Below are positions 530 to 24,210 of a stretch of DNA of 36,134 nucleotides, one piece after another. The position numbers and the translations under genes were made by a program. Each line of letters begins with the position of its first letter. Within the stretch, counting starts at the first letter, position 1. The notes below the pieces were generated by a model, which made no database searches, was not told the origin of the DNA, and worked only from the letters and a program-made list of their open reading frames with translations. The stretch lies in the IMG/VR virus record IMGVR_UViG_3300032265_000909, positions 1 to 36,134 of that record, one strand, 5' to 3'. The DNA comes from a virus.

Positions 530-2197
530 ATGAATTACCTAGATGGCATCCAGTATGCTAATCAGGTCGCCAAAGGTGAAATCGAAGTTTGCAGAAATGT
601 TCGGCTTGCCTGTCAGCGCTTCCTAAACCAGTTTGAAAACAAGGAATGGGAATGGGAGTTTGACCCAGATTATCCCAACCATGTCTTAGGATTTGCATCT
701 TTACTCAAGCATACCAAAGGGCATCAAGCCGGGCAAAATGTAGTCCTTGAGCCATTTCAGATATTTTTTATTTGTGCCATTTATGGCTTTCGGGCAAAGA
801 AAGATCATAGCCGCCGAATGGTTACAGATGTCATTTTGTATATTCCTAGAAAAGCTGGTAAGTCCACATTAACAAGTATTATTGCGCTTTATGAATTAGC
901 TTGTGGCGAAGCTGGTTCGGAAGTCTTTACCCTAGCAACAAACCGAGAACAGGCATCTATTGTTTTTGATGCATCTAAGGGATTTATTGAAACTGGACCA
1001 AAAGAGATTGCCAGCCTGTTTACTGTCAGCAAATATCAAATAGGCAAGTTTGGTGATAGTCAATCTATGTTTAAAGCCTTGAGCCGGGACACCAAAAAGA
1101 CAGGCGATGGTAAAAACCCATCTTGTGTAATTGTGGATGAAGCCGCCCAGATTATTGACCGCAACTCTATTGAGGTTTTGCACTCTGGTATGGTTGCCCG
1201 GCAAAACCCATTGCGGATATACATCACCACCGCCAGCTTTACCAAAGACACCAAGTTTTATGAAGATATGTCTATGCTGGAATCCATGCTTAATGGCGAA
1301 GCAACCGACAATCCCAGATGGTTTGGTTTGCTATATGCCCTAGACCCACAGGATGATTGGCGCAATCCTAAAACTTGGGCAAAAGCTAATCCTATGCATG
1401 GCATTAGCATTTTTGAAGATGCTATTGCTCAAAGAGCAGAAGAAGCCAAGAATAAGCCAGCGGCACTCAATGAGTTTCTTTGCAAAACCCTTAATATTTA
1501 TGTCAGCGCCCAGACAGCATGGGTAGATAGGGGACATTGGGATAAACCCGAATGTATTATTAAGGAAGATAGGGGCGAACCAGAGGCGACATTTATTGGA
1601 TTCGACTTAGCCGCCACAAGGGACTTAAATGCAGTTTGCACTTTAAAGCGCTATGGCGAATTAGATTATGAAGCAAGCTGGAAATTCTTTTTGCCTGAAG
1701 CTGGCTATGAGTTAATTCCAAAGCATTATCAAGATATATTTAGGGTTGCAGTAGATTCTGGCATTCTAAAATTAACCGAAGGTAATGTAATGGATGATAG
1801 GGAAATATCCGATTACATCAAAATGGAGTGCGAAAAATATAATGTCAAAGAGGTTGGATATGATGCCTATAATGCCGCATCCTTGGTGGCTCGATTATAT
1901 GATTCTGGAATACCAGTTAAAAAAGTGGGGCAGGGCATGGCAATATTATCTAATCCTTCTAAATATGTGGAAAAGTTAATAATGAATCAGCAAATCAAGC
2001 ATGATGGTAATCCCTTTGTAGGTTGGCAGTTAGGAAACTGTGAAGTTTATGAAGATGTAAATGGAAATATTAAAGTTCGCAAGAATGAAGCAGATAAATC
2101 GGCAAAAGTTGATGGCATTATTGCTATGATTATTGCGGCTCATTGCAGTTTGGATAATCCTTTTGTTTCAGATTCCTTTGGATTTAGAAGTTTCTGA
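530..2197 (+). CDS. terL: Terminase large subunit
   Basis: This 555-residue motor protein packages DNA into the prohead using ATP and cuts the concatemer. The N-terminal ATPase shows a Walker A-like PRKAGKST (106-113) and a Walker B VIVDEAA (200-206), with a coupling-type ITTAS at about 232-236. The C-terminal RNase H-like nuclease shows acidic residues in GFDLA (D359), GYDAYNA (D445) and KVDGIIA (D528), the expected three-aspartate metal site. The length is normal for the HK97/P27-associated terminases. No frameshift or inserted intein is seen. It follows terS by one base after the stop codon, giving tight co-translation. Confidence 0.96.
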   Translation: MNYLDGIQYANQVAKGEIEVCRNVRLACQRFLNQFENKEWEWEFDPDYPNHVLGFASLLKHTKGHQAGQNVVLEPFQIFFICAIYGFRAKKDHSRRMVTDVILYIPRKAGKSTLTSIIALYELACGEAGSEVFTLATNREQASIVFDASKGFIETGPKEIASLFTVSKYQIGKFGDSQSMFKALSRDTKKTGDGKNPSCVIVDEAAQIIDRNSIEVLHSGMVARQNPLRIYITTASFTKDTKFYEDMSMLESMLNGEATDNPRWFGLLYALDPQDDWRNPKTWAKANPMHGISIFEDAIAQRAEEAKNKPAALNEFLCKTLNIYVSAQTAWVDRGHWDKPECIIKEDRGEPEATFIGFDLAATRDLNAVCTLKRYGELDYEASWKFFLPEAGYELIPKHYQDIFRVAVDSGILKLTEGNVMDDREISDYIKMECEKYNVKEVGYDAYNAASLVARLYDSGIPVKKVGQGMAILSNPSKYVEKLIMNQQIKHDGNPFVGWQLGNCEVYEDVNGNIKVRKNEADKSAKVDGIIAMIIAAHCSLDNPFVSDSFGFRSF

Positions 2198-3682: not shown

Positions 3683-3901
3683 ATGGAAAAGATTAATAAA
3701 GTTCTTCAAATTTTCGGTTATCAGTTACATAAAAATAATGTTAAACTACCAGTAAAATCTGTAAAATCCCCTAAAATACAAGATAATAATCAATCTATTA
3801 AGAATGGGATTATCAATGAATCAGAGCCTAAATTTCCTGTGCGAAGCAAAACTAAGCCTAAGCCAATCCTCAAAAGACAAGTTACCAAGCGGAAAGATTG
3901 A
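3683..3901 (+). CDS. Small basic protein overlapping the protease gene
   Basis: A 72-residue reading frame begins three bases after the portal stop codon with a usable ribosome-binding site (AGGAAAAT). The product is lysine-rich with few acidic residues and no recognisable domain. Its last 98 bases overlap the start of the protease gene in another frame. It could be a genuine small protein, or its only role may be to carry ribosomes into the protease gene, which lacks a strong ribosome-binding site of its own. A +1 frameshift joining it to the protease is also possible. I do not recognise a family. Confidence 0.45.
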   Translation: MEKINKVLQIFGYQLHKNNVKLPVKSVKSPKIQDNNQSIKNGIINESEPKFPVRSKTKPKPILKRQVTKRKD

Positions 3902-4616
3902 AGCTAGAGTAACTTCTTGGGGCGCTAGAGAAGGCGCTGATGGTCGCCGCTTTAACTATCAGCCAGAAGGTTTCCAAGATTGGGCGAATGAGTTTGCCGC
4001 AATGGGCAAACCGCTTCCTATGTTTTTGAATCACAATGATATGGGTATGCCAGTAGGTCAATGGACAGAATTTAACTTTGACAAAAAAGGCATGGTTGCA
4101 TCCGGTGAGTTATTTATGAACACCACCGCTGGTTCTGATCTTTATGAAGTATTAAGAAATTCACCAAATCTTTTTGGCGGTGTTTCTGTTGGCGCTTATG
4201 CCGATGAAGCACAAATGGTTGATGAAGCTGGCAATCCAGTAGCCGAAGATGATATGAATGGTGAAGAATATTTCCAAATTACTAAAGGCGGTTTGAGAGA
4301 AGTTTCTGTTGTTATGTATCCAAACAATCCAGCGGCAGAAATTCAAAAGCTGGAATACTTTGATACAGAAGGCGCACCAAATCCCCGAAATATCGAAAAA
4401 GCCTTGCGAGATGCAGGACTTTCCCGAAAAGATGCGACCACCGCATCTTCAATCCTGAAAAAACTACTTGAACAGCGAGATGTTGTTGAGCCAGTCAATC
4501 AGGTAGCCCCTACTCAGAGTGAGCCTGAAGCGGTGGTCGAAAGCGAAGCTGATGATATTCTCAAAGCCCTAGAGGAAAGAGAACTTTTGAAGCAATTATC
4601 TAATCGTAATAAATAA
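3804..4616 (+). CDS. Prohead maturation protease, HK97 (S78-like)
   Basis: This 270-residue serine protease is expected to cut the scaffold part off the capsid protein and then itself during head maturation. Motifs visible are LNHND with the probable catalytic His77, GGVSVGAY with probable nucleophile Ser128, and REVSVVMYPNNPAA (about 165-178), the conserved end of the catalytic core in this family. The C-terminal third is helical and charged, with a GLSRKDA motif often seen after this protease. The start is uncertain: ATG at 3804 or 3816, both inside the overlapping small frame and both with poor ribosome-binding sites. It sits between portal and capsid genes as expected. Confidence 0.92.
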   Translation: MGLSMNQSLNFLCEAKLSLSQSSKDKLPSGKIEARVTSWGAREGADGRRFNYQPEGFQDWANEFAAMGKPLPMFLNHNDMGMPVGQWTEFNFDKKGMVASGELFMNTTAGSDLYEVLRNSPNLFGGVSVGAYADEAQMVDEAGNPVAEDDMNGEEYFQITKGGLREVSVVMYPNNPAAEIQKLEYFDTEGAPNPRNIEKALRDAGLSRKDATTASSILKKLLEQRDVVEPVNQVAPTQSEPEAVVESEADDILKALEERELLKQLSNRNK

Positions 4617-4625
4617 GGAAAAATC

Positions 4626-5987
4626 ATGTCTGAAAAGATTATTGAAAAACTTGATTTGATTGAAGCCGAATCAATGGCTAAGATTGAAGAAGTTAAATTG
4701 GAAGCAGTAGCCGCTGTTGAAGCCGCTAAAGCAGAAATGACTGAAAAGGTTGTTGCTTTAGAAGCTAAGATTTCTGCTATTCAAGCACCAGAAGTAATGC
4801 GCACTCCTGCCAAGTCTGTTAAACAAGATGTAAACCGCAAAGTTAAAGAGCAGTTAGCTAAGATGGTTAAAAAAGGTTCAATGGGCGGCAAAGAGTTTGA
4901 AATGTTTGCTGATGAATCTGAATATCAAGCATATTTGAAGGAAGATGGTTCACAAATTGGTAATCCTGCTGGTTATGGTGGCGGTTACAATGTCGGTGGT
5001 CGTACTGCCTATGATCCTGTATTCCACAAAATGCGCTTGGTTAATCCACTTAGAGGTGTTAGCCGCAATGTAACTACTGATGGTTCTGTATATCAGTTCA
5101 GAGCAAAAACTGGCAATGCTGGCGCACAATTTGGCTATCAAATTCAGAACAATGGCGCACCAACAACTGAAAACACAAATATTTGGCAAACAGTATTGCA
5201 AGATATGAACTGCCAATTCCCAATCCGTACAGCCGCACTTGATGATATTGATGGTTTGGAATCTAATGTAGTGGATGATATGTTGTTAGAATTTAGCCAA
5301 TTAGAAGGTTTGGCTATGATTCAAAATGATAATCAAGTATCCCCAACAGGCAATCCTACTGGTGGTTCTAATGGTATTATTGGTTTGGATCAATATGGTG
5401 GTGCTAATGGTTCTTATACTGGTGGCACAATTTCTACAGCCGCTTTCGGTTCTTCTGGGACAGCATCTACTGATGGCTTGCATAGCATTGCTACTTATGA
5501 CCAAATTACAACCAATGGCTCTACTGCTGGTGCAAACAATGTAACTTTTGATGACATTATCAACTTCTTACATTTCTTGCCACAGGAATATTGGACACCA
5601 GATGCAAAGATTATCGTTAGCCCATTCTTCTTGGCACAAATTCGTGGCTTGAAGGATACTAATGGCACTCCAATTTTTGATCGTATGACACCATTGATTA
5701 CTGATGGTATTGTTGGTCAAATTGCTGGTTTTGATGTTGTTGTGAATAAGTATGTAGATCAACCATATCAAACAAGTGGCAACACCCATGCTAACCTTTA
5801 TCCAATGTATTTTGGACAATGGTCAAGATTCCACACAATCGTGGATCGCTTGAACATGGTTCTGCGCCGCTATGACCAGACATTGCCCGGCTTTATCACC
5901 TTCTTTGGTGAGAAGCGCTTGGCAACTTCTGTTGTTGATCCATTTAGTGCAATCCGCTATCGTTCAACTGCAACTGCAACTGATTGA
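4626..5987 (+). CDS. Major capsid protein 1, HK97 fold with delta domain
   Basis: This 453-residue protein is a probable HK97-fold capsid subunit. Residues 1-55 are a glutamate- and alanine-rich coiled coil, and the stretch to about residue 105 resembles the scaffold-like delta domain removed by the protease. The shell domain follows, with NPLRGV (141-146), MLLEFSQLEGLAM (about 219-231) and a C-terminal block ending LPGFITFFGEKR. The glycine-rich middle is probably surface loops. A strong ribosome-binding site (AAGGA) precedes the ATG. The next gene encodes a paralogue of the shell domain, and a terminator hairpin lies between them, so this copy may be produced in larger amount. Confidence 0.93.
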   Translation: MSEKIIEKLDLIEAESMAKIEEVKLEAVAAVEAAKAEMTEKVVALEAKISAIQAPEVMRTPAKSVKQDVNRKVKEQLAKMVKKGSMGGKEFEMFADESEYQAYLKEDGSQIGNPAGYGGGYNVGGRTAYDPVFHKMRLVNPLRGVSRNVTTDGSVYQFRAKTGNAGAQFGYQIQNNGAPTTENTNIWQTVLQDMNCQFPIRTAALDDIDGLESNVVDDMLLEFSQLEGLAMIQNDNQVSPTGNPTGGSNGIIGLDQYGGANGSYTGGTISTAAFGSSGTASTDGLHSIATYDQITTNGSTAGANNVTFDDIINFLHFLPQEYWTPDAKIIVSPFFLAQIRGLKDTNGTPIFDRMTPLITDGIVGQIAGFDVVVNKYVDQPYQTSGNTHANLYPMYFGQWSRFHTIVDRLNMVLRRYDQTLPGFITFFGEKRLATSVVDPFSAIRYRSTATATD

Positions 5988-5993
5988 TAAAGA

Positions 5994-6030
5994 TGGGGGG
6001 TCAAAAGCCCCCCACTTTTAATTTTTTATA
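5994..6030 (+). terminator. Strong intrinsic terminator or attenuator between capsid genes
   Basis: A perfect hairpin T-GGGGGG, loop TCAAAAG, CCCCCC-A spans 5994-6014 and is followed by a T-rich stretch (ACTTTTAATTTTTT). This is a textbook intrinsic terminator shape, lying seven bases after the first capsid stop codon. The second capsid gene starts only 30 bases after the stem and I see no good promoter between them, so read-through must supply it, and the hairpin probably sets the ratio of the two capsid products. Confidence 0.85.
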
Positions 6031-6044
6031 TACTTGGAAATAAA

Positions 6045-7094
6045 ATGGCTAATCTAATTCTTGAAGCAGTCCAAACCGCCCTTAAAGAAGGCGAAGCTAC
6101 AGTAAACCTAAAAGAAGCATCAGCACTTACTGGCTCTGGTTCAGGGGTCGGTGGTCAAATTGTATTTGATGATGCATTTGCATCTTTGCGCCAAAACAAT
6201 CCTATTCGTAATGCTGGCGCTAGAGTAATCGAAACTATTGGATCAGATGAGGGATTCGTAGTTAAAACTGGTAATATTACCAATGTCCAACAAGGTTCTA
6301 CATATAACCCTTGGGGATACCCAATTAACAATAACAATGCTCATGGTTCAACCGGCATTGCTACTTCTTTCTGGCAATTGCCAGTTCGTGCCATCAATGC
6401 TGTAGTTCCAGTTCGTAATGCTGTGATGGGCGATATTAATGGTATTAATGAAGCCATTGTTGGCGACATCATGCTTGAATTTGCACAGCAAGAAGCGCTG
6501 TCAATGATGTATAACAATGACCAAGCAGGATCAACAACCTATAACTATGGCGCTACCCAAGGCTTGCGGGGCTTAAATAGCTATCCCGGCTCTACATCAG
6601 CCGCCGCTTTTGGTTCTAATGGTCCAGCAATTACTAATGGTCGCCATACTGTATTGCAAGTATCTCAAACTTCTGCATCTGCTGTTAGCTACAATGATTT
6701 AGCTAATTTGGCTGGTGCATTGCCCCCACAATATTGGACAGACCCATCTACTTGCTGGATGATGCACCCAACCACTATTAAACTATTGCGGGAATTAGTA
6801 ACTACTACTTCTGGCATTCCTTATTTCTTGGAAGTAGGCGATGAAGATGGCGGCGCTGTAGTTCATTTGTTTGGTTTCCCAGTATGCGCTAACCCTTATA
6901 TGCAATTAGCTGGTTCTGGTAACTATCCAGTTTATTTGGCGGCATGGAATCGCTTTGTAACTGTTGCTGATAATGAACTAATGTCTATCAAGGCATTTGA
7001 ACAAACTCAGCCCGGTTTCACAACTCTATTCTGTGAAAAGCGGGTAGTTTCAACTATTCGGGATGTATTTGCTGGTGTTAGATTGGTAGGCTAA
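6045..7094 (+). CDS. Second HK97-fold capsid protein, no delta domain
   Basis: This 349-residue protein appears to be a paralogue of the preceding capsid protein. Matching blocks in the same order are NPIRNA against NPLRGV, DIMLEFAQQEALSMM against DMLLEFSQLEGLAMI, LPPQYWTD against LPQEYWTP, and QPGFTTLFCEKR against LPGFITFFGEKR. It lacks the coiled-coil scaffold part and starts near where the mature form of the first protein would start. It could form pentons or minor shell positions, as T4 gp24 does beside gp23, or it could be the true major protein. The terminator upstream suggests lower expression. Its ribosome-binding site is weak (GGAAATAAA). Capsid fold is strongly supported; the role is inferred. 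Confidence 0.85.
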   Translation: MANLILEAVQTALKEGEATVNLKEASALTGSGSGVGGQIVFDDAFASLRQNNPIRNAGARVIETIGSDEGFVVKTGNITNVQQGSTYNPWGYPINNNNAHGSTGIATSFWQLPVRAINAVVPVRNAVMGDINGINEAIVGDIMLEFAQQEALSMMYNNDQAGSTTYNYGATQGLRGLNSYPGSTSAAAFGSNGPAITNGRHTVLQVSQTSASAVSYNDLANLAGALPPQYWTDPSTCWMMHPTTIKLLRELVTTTSGIPYFLEVGDEDGGAVVHLFGFPVCANPYMQLAGSGNYPVYLAAWNRFVTVADNELMSIKAFEQTQPGFTTLFCEKRVVSTIRDVFAGVRLVG

Positions 7095-7095
7095 T

Positions 7096-7764
7096 ATGCC
7101 ATTAGATAGTTTAACTAATGGTCCTTTTTTAGGGACTACTAGGAATCCATTTAGTTATGAAAAGATTGAGCAAATCAGCCGGGATTTACAAACTGGCTGG
7201 CTTACTCTTGACCAGATTACCCAACAACTAAATTTATTTGAAGATACCAGTCAAGATAACTATCTTGCTGGGCTTGAATTGGCGACCCGCATGGCGATTG
7301 AGGACTACTTAGGTATGTCCATATTCCCAATCACTTATAAGGTCTATTATGGGGTTTATAATGGCATGACAGGCACTCAAATGAGCCTAGACTTGCCAGA
7401 AGTAAGCCAAAGTAGCCAAAACAGGGCTGGAGTAGTAATTAATGAAGTAGCTTATTATTCTGGTGCTACACCGCCTGTATATACAGTTCTTCCAGCATCT
7501 AGCTATTACTATGATCCAACTGGCAACAAGGTTATTGTTACTGGAATCCCTGATTCTGCCAGCCAGATCATGTCTAACCCAATTGTTTGCACTTACACAA
7601 CCAATGCAAATCCTTTAGCTCAATATCCAGTAATTCAACAAGCTGGCTTATTGCTTTTGACCCATTTATACAATAATCGTAGCAATACTTTTAATGGCAA
7701 GCTAGATGAAATCCCATTTGGTGTAGCCCAGCTACTTAGACCTTACAAGCCTTTGGTGATGTAA
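7096..7764 (+). CDS. Head-tail connector, gp6-like
   Basis: This 222-residue protein is probably the adaptor ring that docks under the portal. The N-terminal part shows the helical pattern of the HK97 gp6 / SPP1 gp15 group: LTLDQITQQLNL, a short acidic turn, then a helix with LATRMAIEDYLG (about residues 62-73). The remainder is beta-rich with many Tyr and Pro. It begins one base after the capsid stop and shares a base with the next gene, which fits a head-completion operon. Assignment is by position and helix pattern; sequence in this family varies greatly. Confidence 0.78.
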   Translation: MPLDSLTNGPFLGTTRNPFSYEKIEQISRDLQTGWLTLDQITQQLNLFEDTSQDNYLAGLELATRMAIEDYLGMSIFPITYKVYYGVYNGMTGTQMSLDLPEVSQSSQNRAGVVINEVAYYSGATPPVYTVLPASSYYYDPTGNKVIVTGIPDSASQIMSNPIVCTYTTNANPLAQYPVIQQAGLLLLTHLYNNRSNTFNGKLDEIPFGVAQLLRPYKPLVM

Positions 7765-19354: not shown

Positions 19355-22300
19355 ATGACAGATATTACTTTAACAGCGGCAATAGGCAATGCCATTACTT
19401 TGGTTGTAGATCAGGGCTACTTTGGTCCATCTGGATATAGTGGAACTTCTGGATACTCTGGCTATTCTGGAGCATCTGGTCAATCGGGTTTTAGCGGTTA
19501 TTCCGGGCAAAATGGTACATCTGGGTACAATGGTCAATCTGGTTATTCTGGTTACTCAGGTTATAGTGGCTCTGGCATTTCTGGCTACTCTGGCTATTCA
19601 GGAAGTGGCAGAAGTGGCTACAGCGGTTATAGTGGCTTTTCTGGACAGTCTGGAGCATCTACATCAGGCTATAGCGGATACAGCGGTATAAGCGGTTTTA
19701 GTGGCTTTAGCGGTCAAGATGGTGCATCTGGAATATCTGGTTTTTCTGGTGATTCAGGAATTAGTGGCTATAGCGGTTTTTCAGGATATAGTGGTCAGCA
19801 AGGCACTTCTATTAATGTAAAAGGAACTGTCCCTACTGTTGCTGATTTGCCAGCAATAGGCAACCTTCCAAATGATGCTTATATTGTTTCAGCAGATGGC
19901 GACCTATATGTATGGGATGGGCTAGTTTGGAACAATGTTGGTCCTATTGTTGGTCCATCCGGACAAAGCGGTATAAGTGGTTTTAGCGGATATAGCGGAT
20001 TCTCAGGTGATTCTGGTATTAGCGGTTTCTCTGGGCAAGATGGTCAATCGGGTTACTCTGGGCAAGATGGACAAAGTGGCTACTCTGGCTATTCTGGCGA
20101 CAGCGGTATTTCGGGCTACAGCGGATATTCTGGGGATTCAGGAATAAGTGGCTGGTCAGGTGATAGTGGCATTAGTGGCTACTCTGGATTTAGCGGGGAT
20201 AGTGGAATTAGTGGTTTTTCTGGTGATTCTGGAATATCAGGATTTTCAGGTTATTCGGGCATAGGTTTATATTTTGAAGGTGTTTGGAATTACAATTCTG
20301 CTTATATTACAAATTCTATTGTTATTTATGATGGCAATACTTATATTGCAATTATTGATGTCCCCCCTTATAACGACCAACCAAATATAAATCCTACTTA
20401 TTGGTCTTTATTTGTTCCACAAGGCATAAGTGGTTATAGCGGTTTTTCTGGTTACAGCGGTGATTCTGGAATTAGCGGTTTTTCTGGATATTCTGGCGAT
20501 TCTGGCATTTCAGGTTTTAGTGGTGATTCTGGCATAAGTGGCTTTAGTGGATATTCAGGCGATTCAGGAATTAGTGGTTATTCTGGCGATAGTGGCATTA
20601 GTGGATTTTCTGGTTACTCTGGCGACAGCGGCATTTCTGGTTATTCAGGCGATAGTGGAATATCTGGTTTTTCAGGTCAAGATGGATTAAGTGGCTATTC
20701 AGGCGATAGCGGTATATCTGGCTATAGCGGTTATTCAGGATTGGATGGACAAAGTGGATATTCTGGCGCAAGTGGCATTTCTGGATATAGTGGCTTTAGC
20801 GGCATTTCTGGCTATAGTGGTTCTGGTGTTTCTGGCTATTCTGGATTCTCAGGGGCTTCCGGTATTTCTGGTTTTAGCGGTTATTCTGGTATTTCTGGTT
20901 TCAGCGGAATTGATGGGGCATCTGGAATATCTGGGTATTCTGGTGCATCGGGCATAAGTGGTTGGTCTGGCGCATCTGGTATTTCTGGGTTTAGCGGCAT
21001 TAGCGGTTTTTCTGGAATAAATGGATTAAGTGGTTATTCTGGACAAAATGGAGCATCTGGAATATCAGGTTATAGTGGTATTTCTGGATATTCTGGTGCA
21101 ATAGGAAATTCTGGAATTAGTGGTTATTCTGGAGCATCTGGAATATCAGGTTTTAGTGGTTACTCTGGATATTCAGGATTTTCTGGAACAGCAGGATCAT
21201 CTTCTAGTTCATTTTTATTTAAAGTTAATTCAACTCAATATACTGGGCAACCAGCCGCCGGGTATTTAATTTATAACAATGCAACTCAAACAAGTGCTAC
21301 TTTAATTAGTGTCGATCATTTAGATCAAACTGGCACAGACATTGATATTTTCTTGGCGCTTTTAAATGTTGGCGAAAACTTTACTATTCAAGATAGAAAT
21401 ACAAGTGGCAATTATCAGGTTTGGACAATAACAAGCACACCAACTAATGTTAATCCAAATACTGCAAATAGTTATTGGACTTATCCTGTTTCACTTGTTT
21501 CATCTGCTGGAACTGGAACAACTGGATTTGCAAATAATACTTCAGTAATTTTTGCTACCACAAAAGGTGTATCTGGATATTCAGGCTATTCTGGTTATTC
21601 AGGATTTAGTGGTGCAATAGGCACAAGCGGATTTTCTGGTTTTAGTGGAGCATCTGGCATTAGCGGATATAGTGGCATTTCTGGATATTCTGGATCAGGA
21701 GTATCAGGATATTCAGGTTATTCTGGAATTAATGGCGCATCTGGTATTAGCGGATTTTCTGGTGCAAATGGAGCATCAGGTTATTCTGGATTTAGTGGAA
21801 GTGGTGTAAGTGGTTATAGTGGATATAGTGGCATTAGCGGTTATTCCGGTACAAGCGGTTATAGTGGTTCTGGTGTATCTGGATATTCAGGTTACAGCGG
21901 TTCTGGTGTAAGCGGATATAGCGGTTATTCTGGTGCTGTTGGCGCATCTGGAATTTCTGGCTACTCTGGATACAGCGGAGCAGTAGGCGCATCAGGTATA
22001 TCCGGCTACAGCGGTTATTCTGGTTCTGGAGTTTCTGGATACTCTGGTTATAGCGGATCAGGCATTAGTGGCTATAGTGGTTATAGCGGCACAAATGGTA
22101 CTAATGGAGCATCTGGAATTTCTGGTTACTCAGGCTATTCTGGTTCTGGAATTTCAGGTTACAGCGGCTATAGCGGTGCAGTAGGCACAAGCGGTTATAG
22201 TGGTTATTCTGGAACTAATGGCACTAATGGCGCATCAGGCATTAGCGGATATTCAGGTTATTCAGGATCAGGAATTAGTGGATACTCTGGTTACAGCGGT

Positions 22301-22561
22301 TCTGGCTTTAGTGGTTATTCTGGTTTTTCTGGATATAGTGGTGCTGGTGGCGGTGTAATGACTTATGATTCATTTACTGCTACAGCCAGCCAAACAAGTT
22401 TTACTACATCAACCACTTATACATCAGGTAAGATTGAAGTATTTGTTAATGGTTGTAAAGTAAAAAATGGCACAGATGTTACAGTAACAAGTGGCACAAG
22501 CATTGTATTTGGAACAGGATTAACAGTAGGTATGATTGTGGATGCTGTCTATCCGCACTAA
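19355..22561 (+). CDS. Long Gly-x-Ser (collagen-like) fibre protein
   Basis: This 1068-residue protein is mostly Gly-x-Ser triplets, where x is Tyr, Phe, Ile, Asp, Ala or Gln, broken at intervals by Gly-Ser-Gly. The repeats are almost proline-free. Three non-repetitive inserts interrupt them: about residues 151-199 (ending in a YVWDGLVWNNVG motif), about 303-355 (aromatic, with GVWNYNSAY and PTYWSLF, like small carbohydrate-binding modules), and about 612-737 (beta-rich). Residues 998-1068 form a C-terminal beta module with VFVNGCKV that resembles the repeated module at the end of the tail hub. The protein is probably a trimeric, extended receptor-binding or surface fibre. Codons vary widely between equivalent repeats. 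Confidence 0.85.
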   Translation: MTDITLTAAIGNAITLVVDQGYFGPSGYSGTSGYSGYSGASGQSGFSGYSGQNGTSGYNGQSGYSGYSGYSGSGISGYSGYSGSGRSGYSGYSGFSGQSGASTSGYSGYSGISGFSGFSGQDGASGISGFSGDSGISGYSGFSGYSGQQGTSINVKGTVPTVADLPAIGNLPNDAYIVSADGDLYVWDGLVWNNVGPIVGPSGQSGISGFSGYSGFSGDSGISGFSGQDGQSGYSGQDGQSGYSGYSGDSGISGYSGYSGDSGISGWSGDSGISGYSGFSGDSGISGFSGDSGISGFSGYSGIGLYFEGVWNYNSAYITNSIVIYDGNTYIAIIDVPPYNDQPNINPTYWSLFVPQGISGYSGFSGYSGDSGISGFSGYSGDSGISGFSGDSGISGFSGYSGDSGISGYSGDSGISGFSGYSGDSGISGYSGDSGISGFSGQDGLSGYSGDSGISGYSGYSGLDGQSGYSGASGISGYSGFSGISGYSGSGVSGYSGFSGASGISGFSGYSGISGFSGIDGASGISGYSGASGISGWSGASGISGFSGISGFSGINGLSGYSGQNGASGISGYSGISGYSGAIGNSGISGYSGASGISGFSGYSGYSGFSGTAGSSSSSFLFKVNSTQYTGQPAAGYLIYNNATQTSATLISVDHLDQTGTDIDIFLALLNVGENFTIQDRNTSGNYQVWTITSTPTNVNPNTANSYWTYPVSLVSSAGTGTTGFANNTSVIFATTKGVSGYSGYSGYSGFSGAIGTSGFSGFSGASGISGYSGISGYSGSGVSGYSGYSGINGASGISGFSGANGASGYSGFSGSGVSGYSGYSGISGYSGTSGYSGSGVSGYSGYSGSGVSGYSGYSGAVGASGISGYSGYSGAVGASGISGYSGYSGSGVSGYSGYSGSGISGYSGYSGTNGTNGASGISGYSGYSGSGISGYSGYSGAVGTSGYSGYSGTNGTNGASGISGYSGYSGSGISGYSGYSGSGFSGYSGFSGYSGAGGGVMTYDSFTATASQTSFTTSTTYTSGKIEVFVNGCKVKNGTDVTVTSGTSIVFGTGLTVGMIVDAVYPH
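19421..22350 (+). repeat. Coding repeat region, Gly-x-Ser triplets
   Basis: Nine-base units encoding Gly-x-Ser recur through the fibre gene, organised into longer units such as GDSGISGFSGYS and GYSGYSGSGVS. At DNA level serine is written with both TCN and AGY codons and glycine with several, so the protein repeat is far more regular than the DNA repeat. The region is interrupted by three unique inserts described under the gene. Confidence 0.9.
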
Positions 22562-22583: not shown

Positions 22584-23249
22584 ATGACTACAGTATATGG
22601 ATTAGATGTAGCGACACAATGGGAACAGATTTTAGAGCTTCATGTCTTAAATCTAGCAAAGGAATATCACCCTGATTGGTATCGGTGGCGGCTAACCAAT
22701 AATTATGAAAGGGCGGTATTCCTTAAAGGCGACCCAGTATTTCCTAGAGAAACTACCCGGTATCTTTGGGCAAATCAAAACCTATATGGCAATTCCATTT
22801 TAGAAATTGGTTGTTCAACTGGTTATGGATGCCAATTCTTTCCTGCCGATATGAAATATTATGGGGTCGATTATGATCCTATTATTATTTCTGTTGCAAA
22901 AGAGCAACAATGGGGCGACAACAAATTCTTTTTTCAAGCTGATATTAATCAGATGCAAATGGAAAAGCATGATACTGTCATTGCTTTTGAGGTCATTGAG
23001 CATCTTAATAATGGTTTAGATGTTGTGAAAAAACTACAAAATGCTTGCAAGCGGCTATTAATTACTGTGCCGCACAATGAACCAAAAGGATTTTGGGGTG
23101 AGCATCATAAACTGCATGGGCTAACCGAAGCAGATTTCCCCGGATTTACTTTTGCTTATATCAATGAAGCTGGTCATGTATCCGATCAGATGCAACCAGT
23201 ATCCGAAACCAATCGATGCAATCTAATGCTGTGCCGATATGATGCCTAA
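22584..23249 (+). CDS. SAM-dependent methyltransferase, class I
   Basis: This 221-residue protein has the class I fold: motif I ILEIGCSTGYG (72-82), the acidic end of strand two in YYGVDYD (D96), QADI with Asp120 after strand three, and VIAFEVIEHL (132-141), typical of methyltransferases acting on small molecules, lipids or sugars rather than DNA. No DNA-methyltransferase DPPY motif is present. The N-terminal 70 residues include a tryptophan-rich helix pair. It overlaps the glycosyltransferase gene by 11 bases, so the products are likely to act in one pathway, perhaps methylating a sugar or the fibre. The substrate is unknown. Confidence 0.85.
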   Translation: MTTVYGLDVATQWEQILELHVLNLAKEYHPDWYRWRLTNNYERAVFLKGDPVFPRETTRYLWANQNLYGNSILEIGCSTGYGCQFFPADMKYYGVDYDPIIISVAKEQQWGDNKFFFQADINQMQMEKHDTVIAFEVIEHLNNGLDVVKKLQNACKRLLITVPHNEPKGFWGEHHKLHGLTEADFPGFTFAYINEAGHVSDQMQPVSETNRCNLMLCRYDA

Positions 23250-24210
23250 AGTCTTATGCTCGGTAGCTACCAGAGGTAGATATTTCACTACTTTACCGCT
23301 GGTGCTAAATGCCATCATGAATCAAACCAAATTGCCAGATAAGCTGGTCATATTTGATGACAATGATGAGCCACAAGATATGAGAAATGTAGCAATGTAT
23401 CAACATTTTTTTCAAATTCTTGATTACAAAAAGATTGCTTGGGAATGGCTATATGCCGACAAAAAAGGACAGCACCATATTCACCAAAAAGCCAATGAAA
23501 TGGGCTATGAATGGGTTTGGCGGGTAGATGATGATGCTATACCAGAGCCTAATGTCTTAGAAGAATTGTATTGGTCCACAGCTAATAATGTTGGCGCTGT
23601 TGGTGGCTCAATTCTTACTATGCCAAATATCTTTAATACAGCCAAATCTACAGGCAAACTTGCCGACATAGACAAAGAACCTAATATTCAATGGGGCAAC
23701 ATAACTGATACTAAACAAGTCGAACATTTGCATTGCTCATTTCTGTATCGGGCTGGAGTGCATGACTATAACCTTGGGCTGTCCAGAGTAGCGCACAGGG
23801 AAGAAACCTTGTTTACCTATGGTTTGTATCAAAAAGGATACAAAATTTTAACTATACCCAATGCAGTTACTTGGCATTTTAAAAATCCAGAAGGGGGCAT
23901 CCGAAGTGAAACCAAACAAGAAATGTTCGCCCATGATGAAGCTATTTTTAGAAATATTGTTGGATTTTCTGATTCAACCATTGTTGTTCTTAATTGTGGT
24001 GCTGGAGATCATATTGTTTTCAGCCATATACTTTCTGAGATTCCTAATCCTGTCATTTTTACTTGTTATCCTGAGATTGTTCCCGGCAAATCAATAGCAG
24101 AAGCCCAAGCCCTATTTGGCAACCTAGACCAATGGAATATATATAAAAAGATGGCGCAATGGAACTGGAAAGGCAGTTTAGAAGATGCCTATAGGAATAT
24201 GTACCTATGA
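23239..24210 (+). CDS. GT2-type glycosyltransferase with extra GT-B-like lobe
   Basis: This 323-residue protein has two parts. Residues 1-235 look like a family 2 glycosyltransferase (GT-A fold): VLCSVATRGR at the start, IFDDND (38-43), and VWRVDDDAIPEP (93-104), which holds the metal-binding Asp cluster 97-99. Residues 247-323 form a separate alpha-beta unit with VVLNCGAGDHIVFSHIL (249-265), resembling the N-terminal lobe of GT-B heptosyltransferase-like enzymes. The next gene supplies what looks like the C-terminal lobe. Starts at 23239 and 23242 are both possible. It is coupled to both neighbours by overlaps. The sugar donor and acceptor are unknown. Confidence 0.8.
   Translation: MMPKVLCSVATRGRYFTTLPLVLNAIMNQTKLPDKLVIFDDNDEPQDMRNVAMYQHFFQILDYKKIAWEWLYADKKGQHHIHQKANEMGYEWVWRVDDDAIPEPNVLEELYWSTANNVGAVGGSILTMPNIFNTAKSTGKLADIDKEPNIQWGNITDTKQVEHLHCSFLYRAGVHDYNLGLSRVAHREETLFTYGLYQKGYKILTIPNAVTWHFKNPEGGIRSETKQEMFAHDEAIFRNIVGFSDSTIVVLNCGAGDHIVFSHILSEIPNPVIFTCYPEIVPGKSIAEAQALFGNLDQWNIYKKMAQWNWKGSLEDAYRNMYL

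Follow-up and report, generated by a model that had tools for sequence, protein, structure and literature searches.

The viral DNA analysed here (hereafter the window) is a stretch of 36,134 nucleotides (IMG/VR record IMGVR_UViG_3300032265_000909, positions 1 to 36,134) carrying two adjoining genes for HK97-fold capsid proteins, MCP1 and MCP2, of which only the first bears a putative delta-type scaffold domain. The best reading of this arrangement is a two-protein capsid in which the two proteins occur in unequal amounts, because they are HK97-fold paralogues, a single scaffold domain is present between them, the hairpin separating their genes is conserved and the genes form an obligate pair in the relatives read. 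In most studied tailed phages, a single capsid protein fills both hexons and pentons, T4 being the textbook exception. In the lineage of the window, MCP1 probably forms the hexons and provides the scaffolding, with MCP2 serving as a scarcer vertex protein similar to T4 gp24.

Two Capsid Paralogues in an HK97-Type Head Operon

The genes and elements of the head operon are as follows (positions in the window).

530..2197, + strand: terminase large subunit (PF20441, E 5.8e-41; PF03354, E 6.8e-25; 72.6% identity to TerL of phage P19250A)
2237..3679, + strand: portal protein, HK97 type (PF04860, E 4.4e-62; TIGR01537, above cut-off)
3804..4616, + strand: prohead protease, S78 type (PF04586, E 8.3e-10, above cut-off)
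4626..5987, + strand: MCP1, HK97-fold major capsid protein with N-terminal delta-type scaffold domain at about residues 1-103 (PF05065, E 8.3e-24; TIGR01554, E 3.2e-29; fold match to the RcGTA capsid)
4626..4934, + strand: putative delta-type domain of MCP1, absent from MCP2 (long helices predicted at residues 2-51 and 65-82, low confidence)
5994..6014, + strand: GC-rich hairpin TGGGGGGTCAAAAGCCCCCCA followed by the U-rich tail CTTTTAATTTTTT, intrinsic-terminator-like (strong fold at the same place in relatives)
6045..7094, + strand: MCP2, HK97-fold capsid paralogue without a delta domain, proposed vertex (penton) subunit (PF05065, E 1.7e-17; model fold match to the RcGTA capsid)
7096..7764, + strand: head-tail adaptor (phrog_442, E 9e-10)

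The pair is thus surrounded by an HK97-type head operon, with the adaptor and tail genes 3' of MCP2. HK97, mEp235 and RcGTA have in common with the window the order TerL-portal-protease-MCP-adaptor, a delta-type domain on the MCP and the fold matches. HK97 and RcGTA have one MCP each, and the head operon of mEp235 likewise differs from that of the window in containing one MCP gene. Farther downstream, positions 19355-22561 encode a 1068-residue protein in which GYSG/GFSG/GISG repeats predominate and which is probably collagen-like, serving as a tail or fibre protein, and methyltransferase-like and glycosyltransferase-like reading frames (recognised by eye only) lie past the fibre genes at 22584-24210.

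A preliminary description of this DNA had proposed two HK97-fold paralogues in tandem, and its coordinates and lengths for the two reading frames (453 aa for MCP1 and 349 aa for MCP2) were exact. Both products score above the curated cut-offs of PF05065 (84.9 bits for MCP1 and 64.2 for MCP2; cut-off 24.2) and TIGR01554 (102.2 and 59.2 bits; cut-off 27.5; E 3e-29 and 4e-16), and a genome-wide search yielded exactly two PF05065 matches, MCP1 and MCP2. In BLASTP the two proteins align over 361 columns with 34% identity (174 bits, E 4e-55), and a self-search of the genome also pairs them (E 5.4e-49), so that the family matches and the alignment bear out the proposal and the sequence likeness of the paralogues far exceeds chance. 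A chance likeness or a recent tandem copy is ruled out by this E value together with the single old duplication described below, and a frameshifted or split gene is ruled out because neither frame is truncated and the entire fold is encoded in each.

Structure prediction, named in the preliminary description as a check, agrees with this assignment in that each model matches whole solved HK97-fold capsid proteins. The MCP2 model (pLDDT 75) best matches the RcGTA capsid (Z 23.2, rmsd 4.2 A over 251 residues) and also matches HK97 prohead I (Z 18.3, rmsd 3.9 A over 249 residues); the low-confidence MCP1 model (pLDDT 57) likewise best matches the RcGTA capsid (Z 18.2, rmsd 4.6 A over 246 residues). 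The alignments behind these models consisted of window and contig sequences only. Both proteins are predicted to be complete HK97 folds, in the case of MCP1 from the low-confidence model. Hexon or penton assignment by fold match was uninformative, as HK97 chains from different positions score alike against both models.

A Predicted Scaffold Domain on One Paralogue and a Proposed Common Protease Junction

The alignment of MCP2 to MCP1 starts at about MCP1 residue 97, and the first 85-100 residues of MCP1 are absent from MCP2, confirming the earlier observation that only one paralogue carries a scaffold domain. In MCP1, the N-terminus is modelled, at low confidence, as helical, as expected for a delta-type scaffold domain, and the protease gene adjoins, as is characteristic of HK97-type MCPs. 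Among the MCP1 relatives this domain has full occupancy, yet it is the least conserved part of the protein.

Just ahead of the fold, the motif KEASALTGSGxGVGGR is common to both proteins in most relatives (the junction stretch in the window's MCP1 is LKEDGSQIGNPAGYGGGYNVGGR), and is preceded by about 100 residues in MCP1 and about 24 in MCP2. Judging from HK97, cleavage by the protease would be expected near this motif, and occurrence of the motif on both proteins fits a single protease acting on both. A short propeptide on MCP2 is possible because about 24 residues are retained before the common junction; cleavage of both proteins, if it occurs, would release propeptides of about 100 residues from MCP1 and 24 from MCP2.

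In T4, 65 N-terminal residues are lost from the hexon protein gp23 and only 10 from its paralogue, the vertex protein gp24, which forms 11 pentamers and probably originated by gene duplication (PMC9958956). The T4 proteins resemble what is proposed for the window pair in being HK97-fold paralogues of one head, with a long and a short propeptide and with one protein far more abundant (PMC9958956). MCP2, too, is a paralogue of the proposed hexon protein by gene duplication, as indicated by the tree below and the E value of 4e-55. In contrast, T4, a large myophage, has a prolate head, a separate scaffold core and a gp23-gp24 identity of only ~20%, whereas the window pair, with its proposed vertex protein, belongs to an HK97/GTA-like phage of ~36-39 kb and consists of paralogues that are 34% identical, one of them fused to the scaffold. 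A PDB sequence search with MCP2 gave no T4 match, and the fold alone is common to both.

A Conserved Hairpin Between the Capsid Genes

In 150 distinct relatives, the median folding energy over the 50 bases past the MCP1 stop is -19.5 kcal/mol. Energies below -10 kcal/mol were found after MCP1 in 146 of 150 cases, compared with 52 of 145 cases after MCP2 and, for randomly chosen sites, 142 of 450; folding energy was used for this comparison in place of a strict perfect-stem scan, which missed 38 of 152 hairpins, most of them with a mismatch or a G-T pair. At least 78 distinct perfect stem-loops occur at the site, indicating that the stem is retained while its sequence changes. The GC-rich stem, the following U-run and the conserved position are those of a predicted intrinsic terminator, and the hairpin fits an intrinsic terminator or mRNA-end structure that would lower expression of MCP2 and the downstream genes. 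An Rfam search of the window gave no match.

HK97-like mEp235 resembles the window in having an annotated terminator at the same place, immediately 3' of its single MCP gene. The hairpin thus fits high MCP1 output and is not specific to paired capsids, and a terminator alone is no argument for a controlled ratio of shell proteins because a phage with one MCP has it too. Of the suggestion in the preliminary description that the hairpin sets such a ratio, the element itself is supported, as it lies between the genes in 146 of 150 distinct relatives, and its effect on the ratio is putative. The wider proposal of a mixed capsid in which one protein scaffolds both is partly supported: the paralogy, the one-sided scaffold domain, the hairpin and the obligate pairing speak for a capsid of two proteins.

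Conservation and Divergence of the Pair

Relatives were collected by protein-based scans of viral contigs and one scan of genome contigs, and have 48-99% identity. Both genes are present in the same order in 245 of the 263 loci read, a count of loci and not of independent phages, as some come from the same contig; the gene pair that the preliminary description had proposed to seek in related genomes is therefore found there in fixed order. Among the 263 loci, none of the lineage has MCP1 without MCP2 despite downstream room, the sole exception being the added distant outgroup ctOK67, and the MCP2-only loci of the lineage are truncated near the contig or locus start. Among the relatives read, the two genes are obligate partners. 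For the distant outgroups (ctOK67, Javan124 and mEp235), the stretch read contains one capsid gene each, identified by annotation or by a match.

Methylophilaceae phage P19250A (KX815270) and IMG/VR relatives have the same pair, order and hairpin, the P19250A products being 58.7% identical to MCP1 and 52.7% to MCP2; this phage represents a homologous lineage, not a separate system. P19250A is described as a siphovirus of LD28, a clade of freshwater methylotrophs, and synteny with it is reported for Venkman, a marine OM43 phage (PMC8163748). Among the GenBank phages searched for relatives, only P19250A was found, and Venkman was not found in that collection. A lineage phage contig (L177, JAHEYD010000010.1) is binned in a metagenome-assembled genome of the archaeon Candidatus Nitrosotalea, where it is probably misbinned.

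In a tree of 33 pairs and the three outgroups, all MCP1 proteins group together (support 98/99), as do all MCP2 proteins (90/84); the tree therefore shows one duplication before the lineage diversified, with a root that is less sure as the outgroup branches are long. Sixty positions are conserved in both proteins, 54 in MCP1 only and 9 in MCP2 only, and the roles of the two have therefore diverged. Both genes are under purifying selection (dN/dS 0.09-0.19 in close comparisons).

These data bear on whether MCP2 is a shell protein of the virion at all. In P19250A, the first gene is annotated as a gene transfer agent capsid protein and the second is deposited as a hypothetical protein, and MCP2 is the more variable of the two (mean pairwise difference 0.41, compared with 0.32 for MCP1), as might be expected of a duplicate in decay or of a protein that serves another purpose. 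However, MCP2 is intact in the complete loci read, is under purifying selection, lies within the head operon and stems from one old duplication, making either reading very improbable.

In four loci, an extra reading frame lies precisely between MCP1 and MCP2. Those at L166:5345-5986, L219:2253-2861 and L250:2822-3464 encode a ~200-residue protein that resembles a GIY-YIG endonuclease by eye (a Pfam scan of one gave no match), and that at L111:2078-2421 encodes an HNH endonuclease (PF01844, E 3.7e-05). These inserts are likely homing endonucleases.

In ten related loci (L057:5692-5994, L059, L060, L061, L063, L065, L067, L068, L069 and L070), MCP2 has an additional N-terminal domain of ~101 residues (phrog_2859-like), which is absent from the window. 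This domain also stands at the N-terminus of long capsid proteins in two phages, Roseobacter phage CRP-821 and Synechococcus phage S-CBS1, and in a Vibrio phage it begins a coil-containing protein encoded upstream of the MCP. The presence of the domain supports MCP2 as a true prohead component. It also indicates that MCP2 can bear an extra prohead function, and the complete HK97 fold of both proteins leaves position unfixed; MCP2 might thus occupy a special non-vertex place, such as a portal ring or part of the hexons, or build an alternative smaller shell. An HK97-fold paralogue in such a position was, however, not found in the open-access papers searched, nor is one known to us, and this placement is considered quite improbable.

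Probable Partner Exchange and the Proposed Composition of the Shell

The MCP1 and MCP2 trees conflict in places and the correlation of pairwise distances is only r 0.57, suggesting that MCP1 and MCP2 genes are exchanged between phages. In a close relative of window positions 4626-7094 (L012/L083), MCP1 is 99% identical and MCP2 only about 90%, suggesting exchange or faster change of MCP2 alone. Such partial exchange of partners between lineages would suit a mixed shell without fixed places, as literally proposed in the preliminary description, in which MCP2 replaces MCP1 anywhere and in variable proportion, using the delta domains of its neighbours. Two-component Family 2B encapsulins offer a precedent, as two HK97-fold shell proteins co-assemble there with variable composition and irregular tiling (PMC12407261); they differ from the window pair in being bacterial cargo compartments with no genome packaging, portal or protease. 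A free substitute should, however, be lost or replaced in some lineages, and the strict pairing, deep divergence and differing conserved positions suggest distinct fixed roles for the two proteins, so that free mixing is held to be unlikely.

The vertex assignment of MCP2 is preferred here as the probable one. Points against it are that the pairing of partners seems looser than tight interfaces would predict, that no feature evident in the sequences singles out five-fold positions, that mEp235 has a terminator after its single MCP gene and that the MCP1 model is of low confidence.

The following course of assembly is proposed. Two HK97-fold shell proteins derived from one old duplication would build the head. 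MCP1, encoded 5' of the terminator and probably abundant, would carry the delta-type scaffold and form the hexons; MCP2, encoded 3' of the terminator, would probably be scarcer and has a short N-terminal segment. MCP2 would co-assemble under the MCP1 scaffold and take the pentameric vertices in the manner of T4 gp24. The S78 protease would then cut at the common KEASALTG junction, freeing MCP1 of its delta domain and perhaps MCP2 of its ~24 N-terminal residues. For a T=7 head with 11 pentameric vertices, the expected numbers would be 55 copies of MCP2 and 360 copies of MCP1.

Implications

A widespread lineage of small freshwater phages has two adjoining shell genes, with a scaffold built into the first only. 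No description of an HK97-like siphophage with two HK97-fold shell paralogues was found in the open-access literature searched. The chances are about even that this small-siphophage lineage evolved, independently of T4, a scaffold-less vertex protein that relies in trans on the fused scaffold of its paralogue. If so, hexon-penton specialisation arose more than once, here in a small and simple HK97-like lineage. The findings also correct how a gene conserved across this widespread group of freshwater phages is annotated. The pair would permit tests of how a fused scaffold serves subunits that have none, and of specialised vertices in relation to stability; as the isolate P19250A exists, the question is directly testable.
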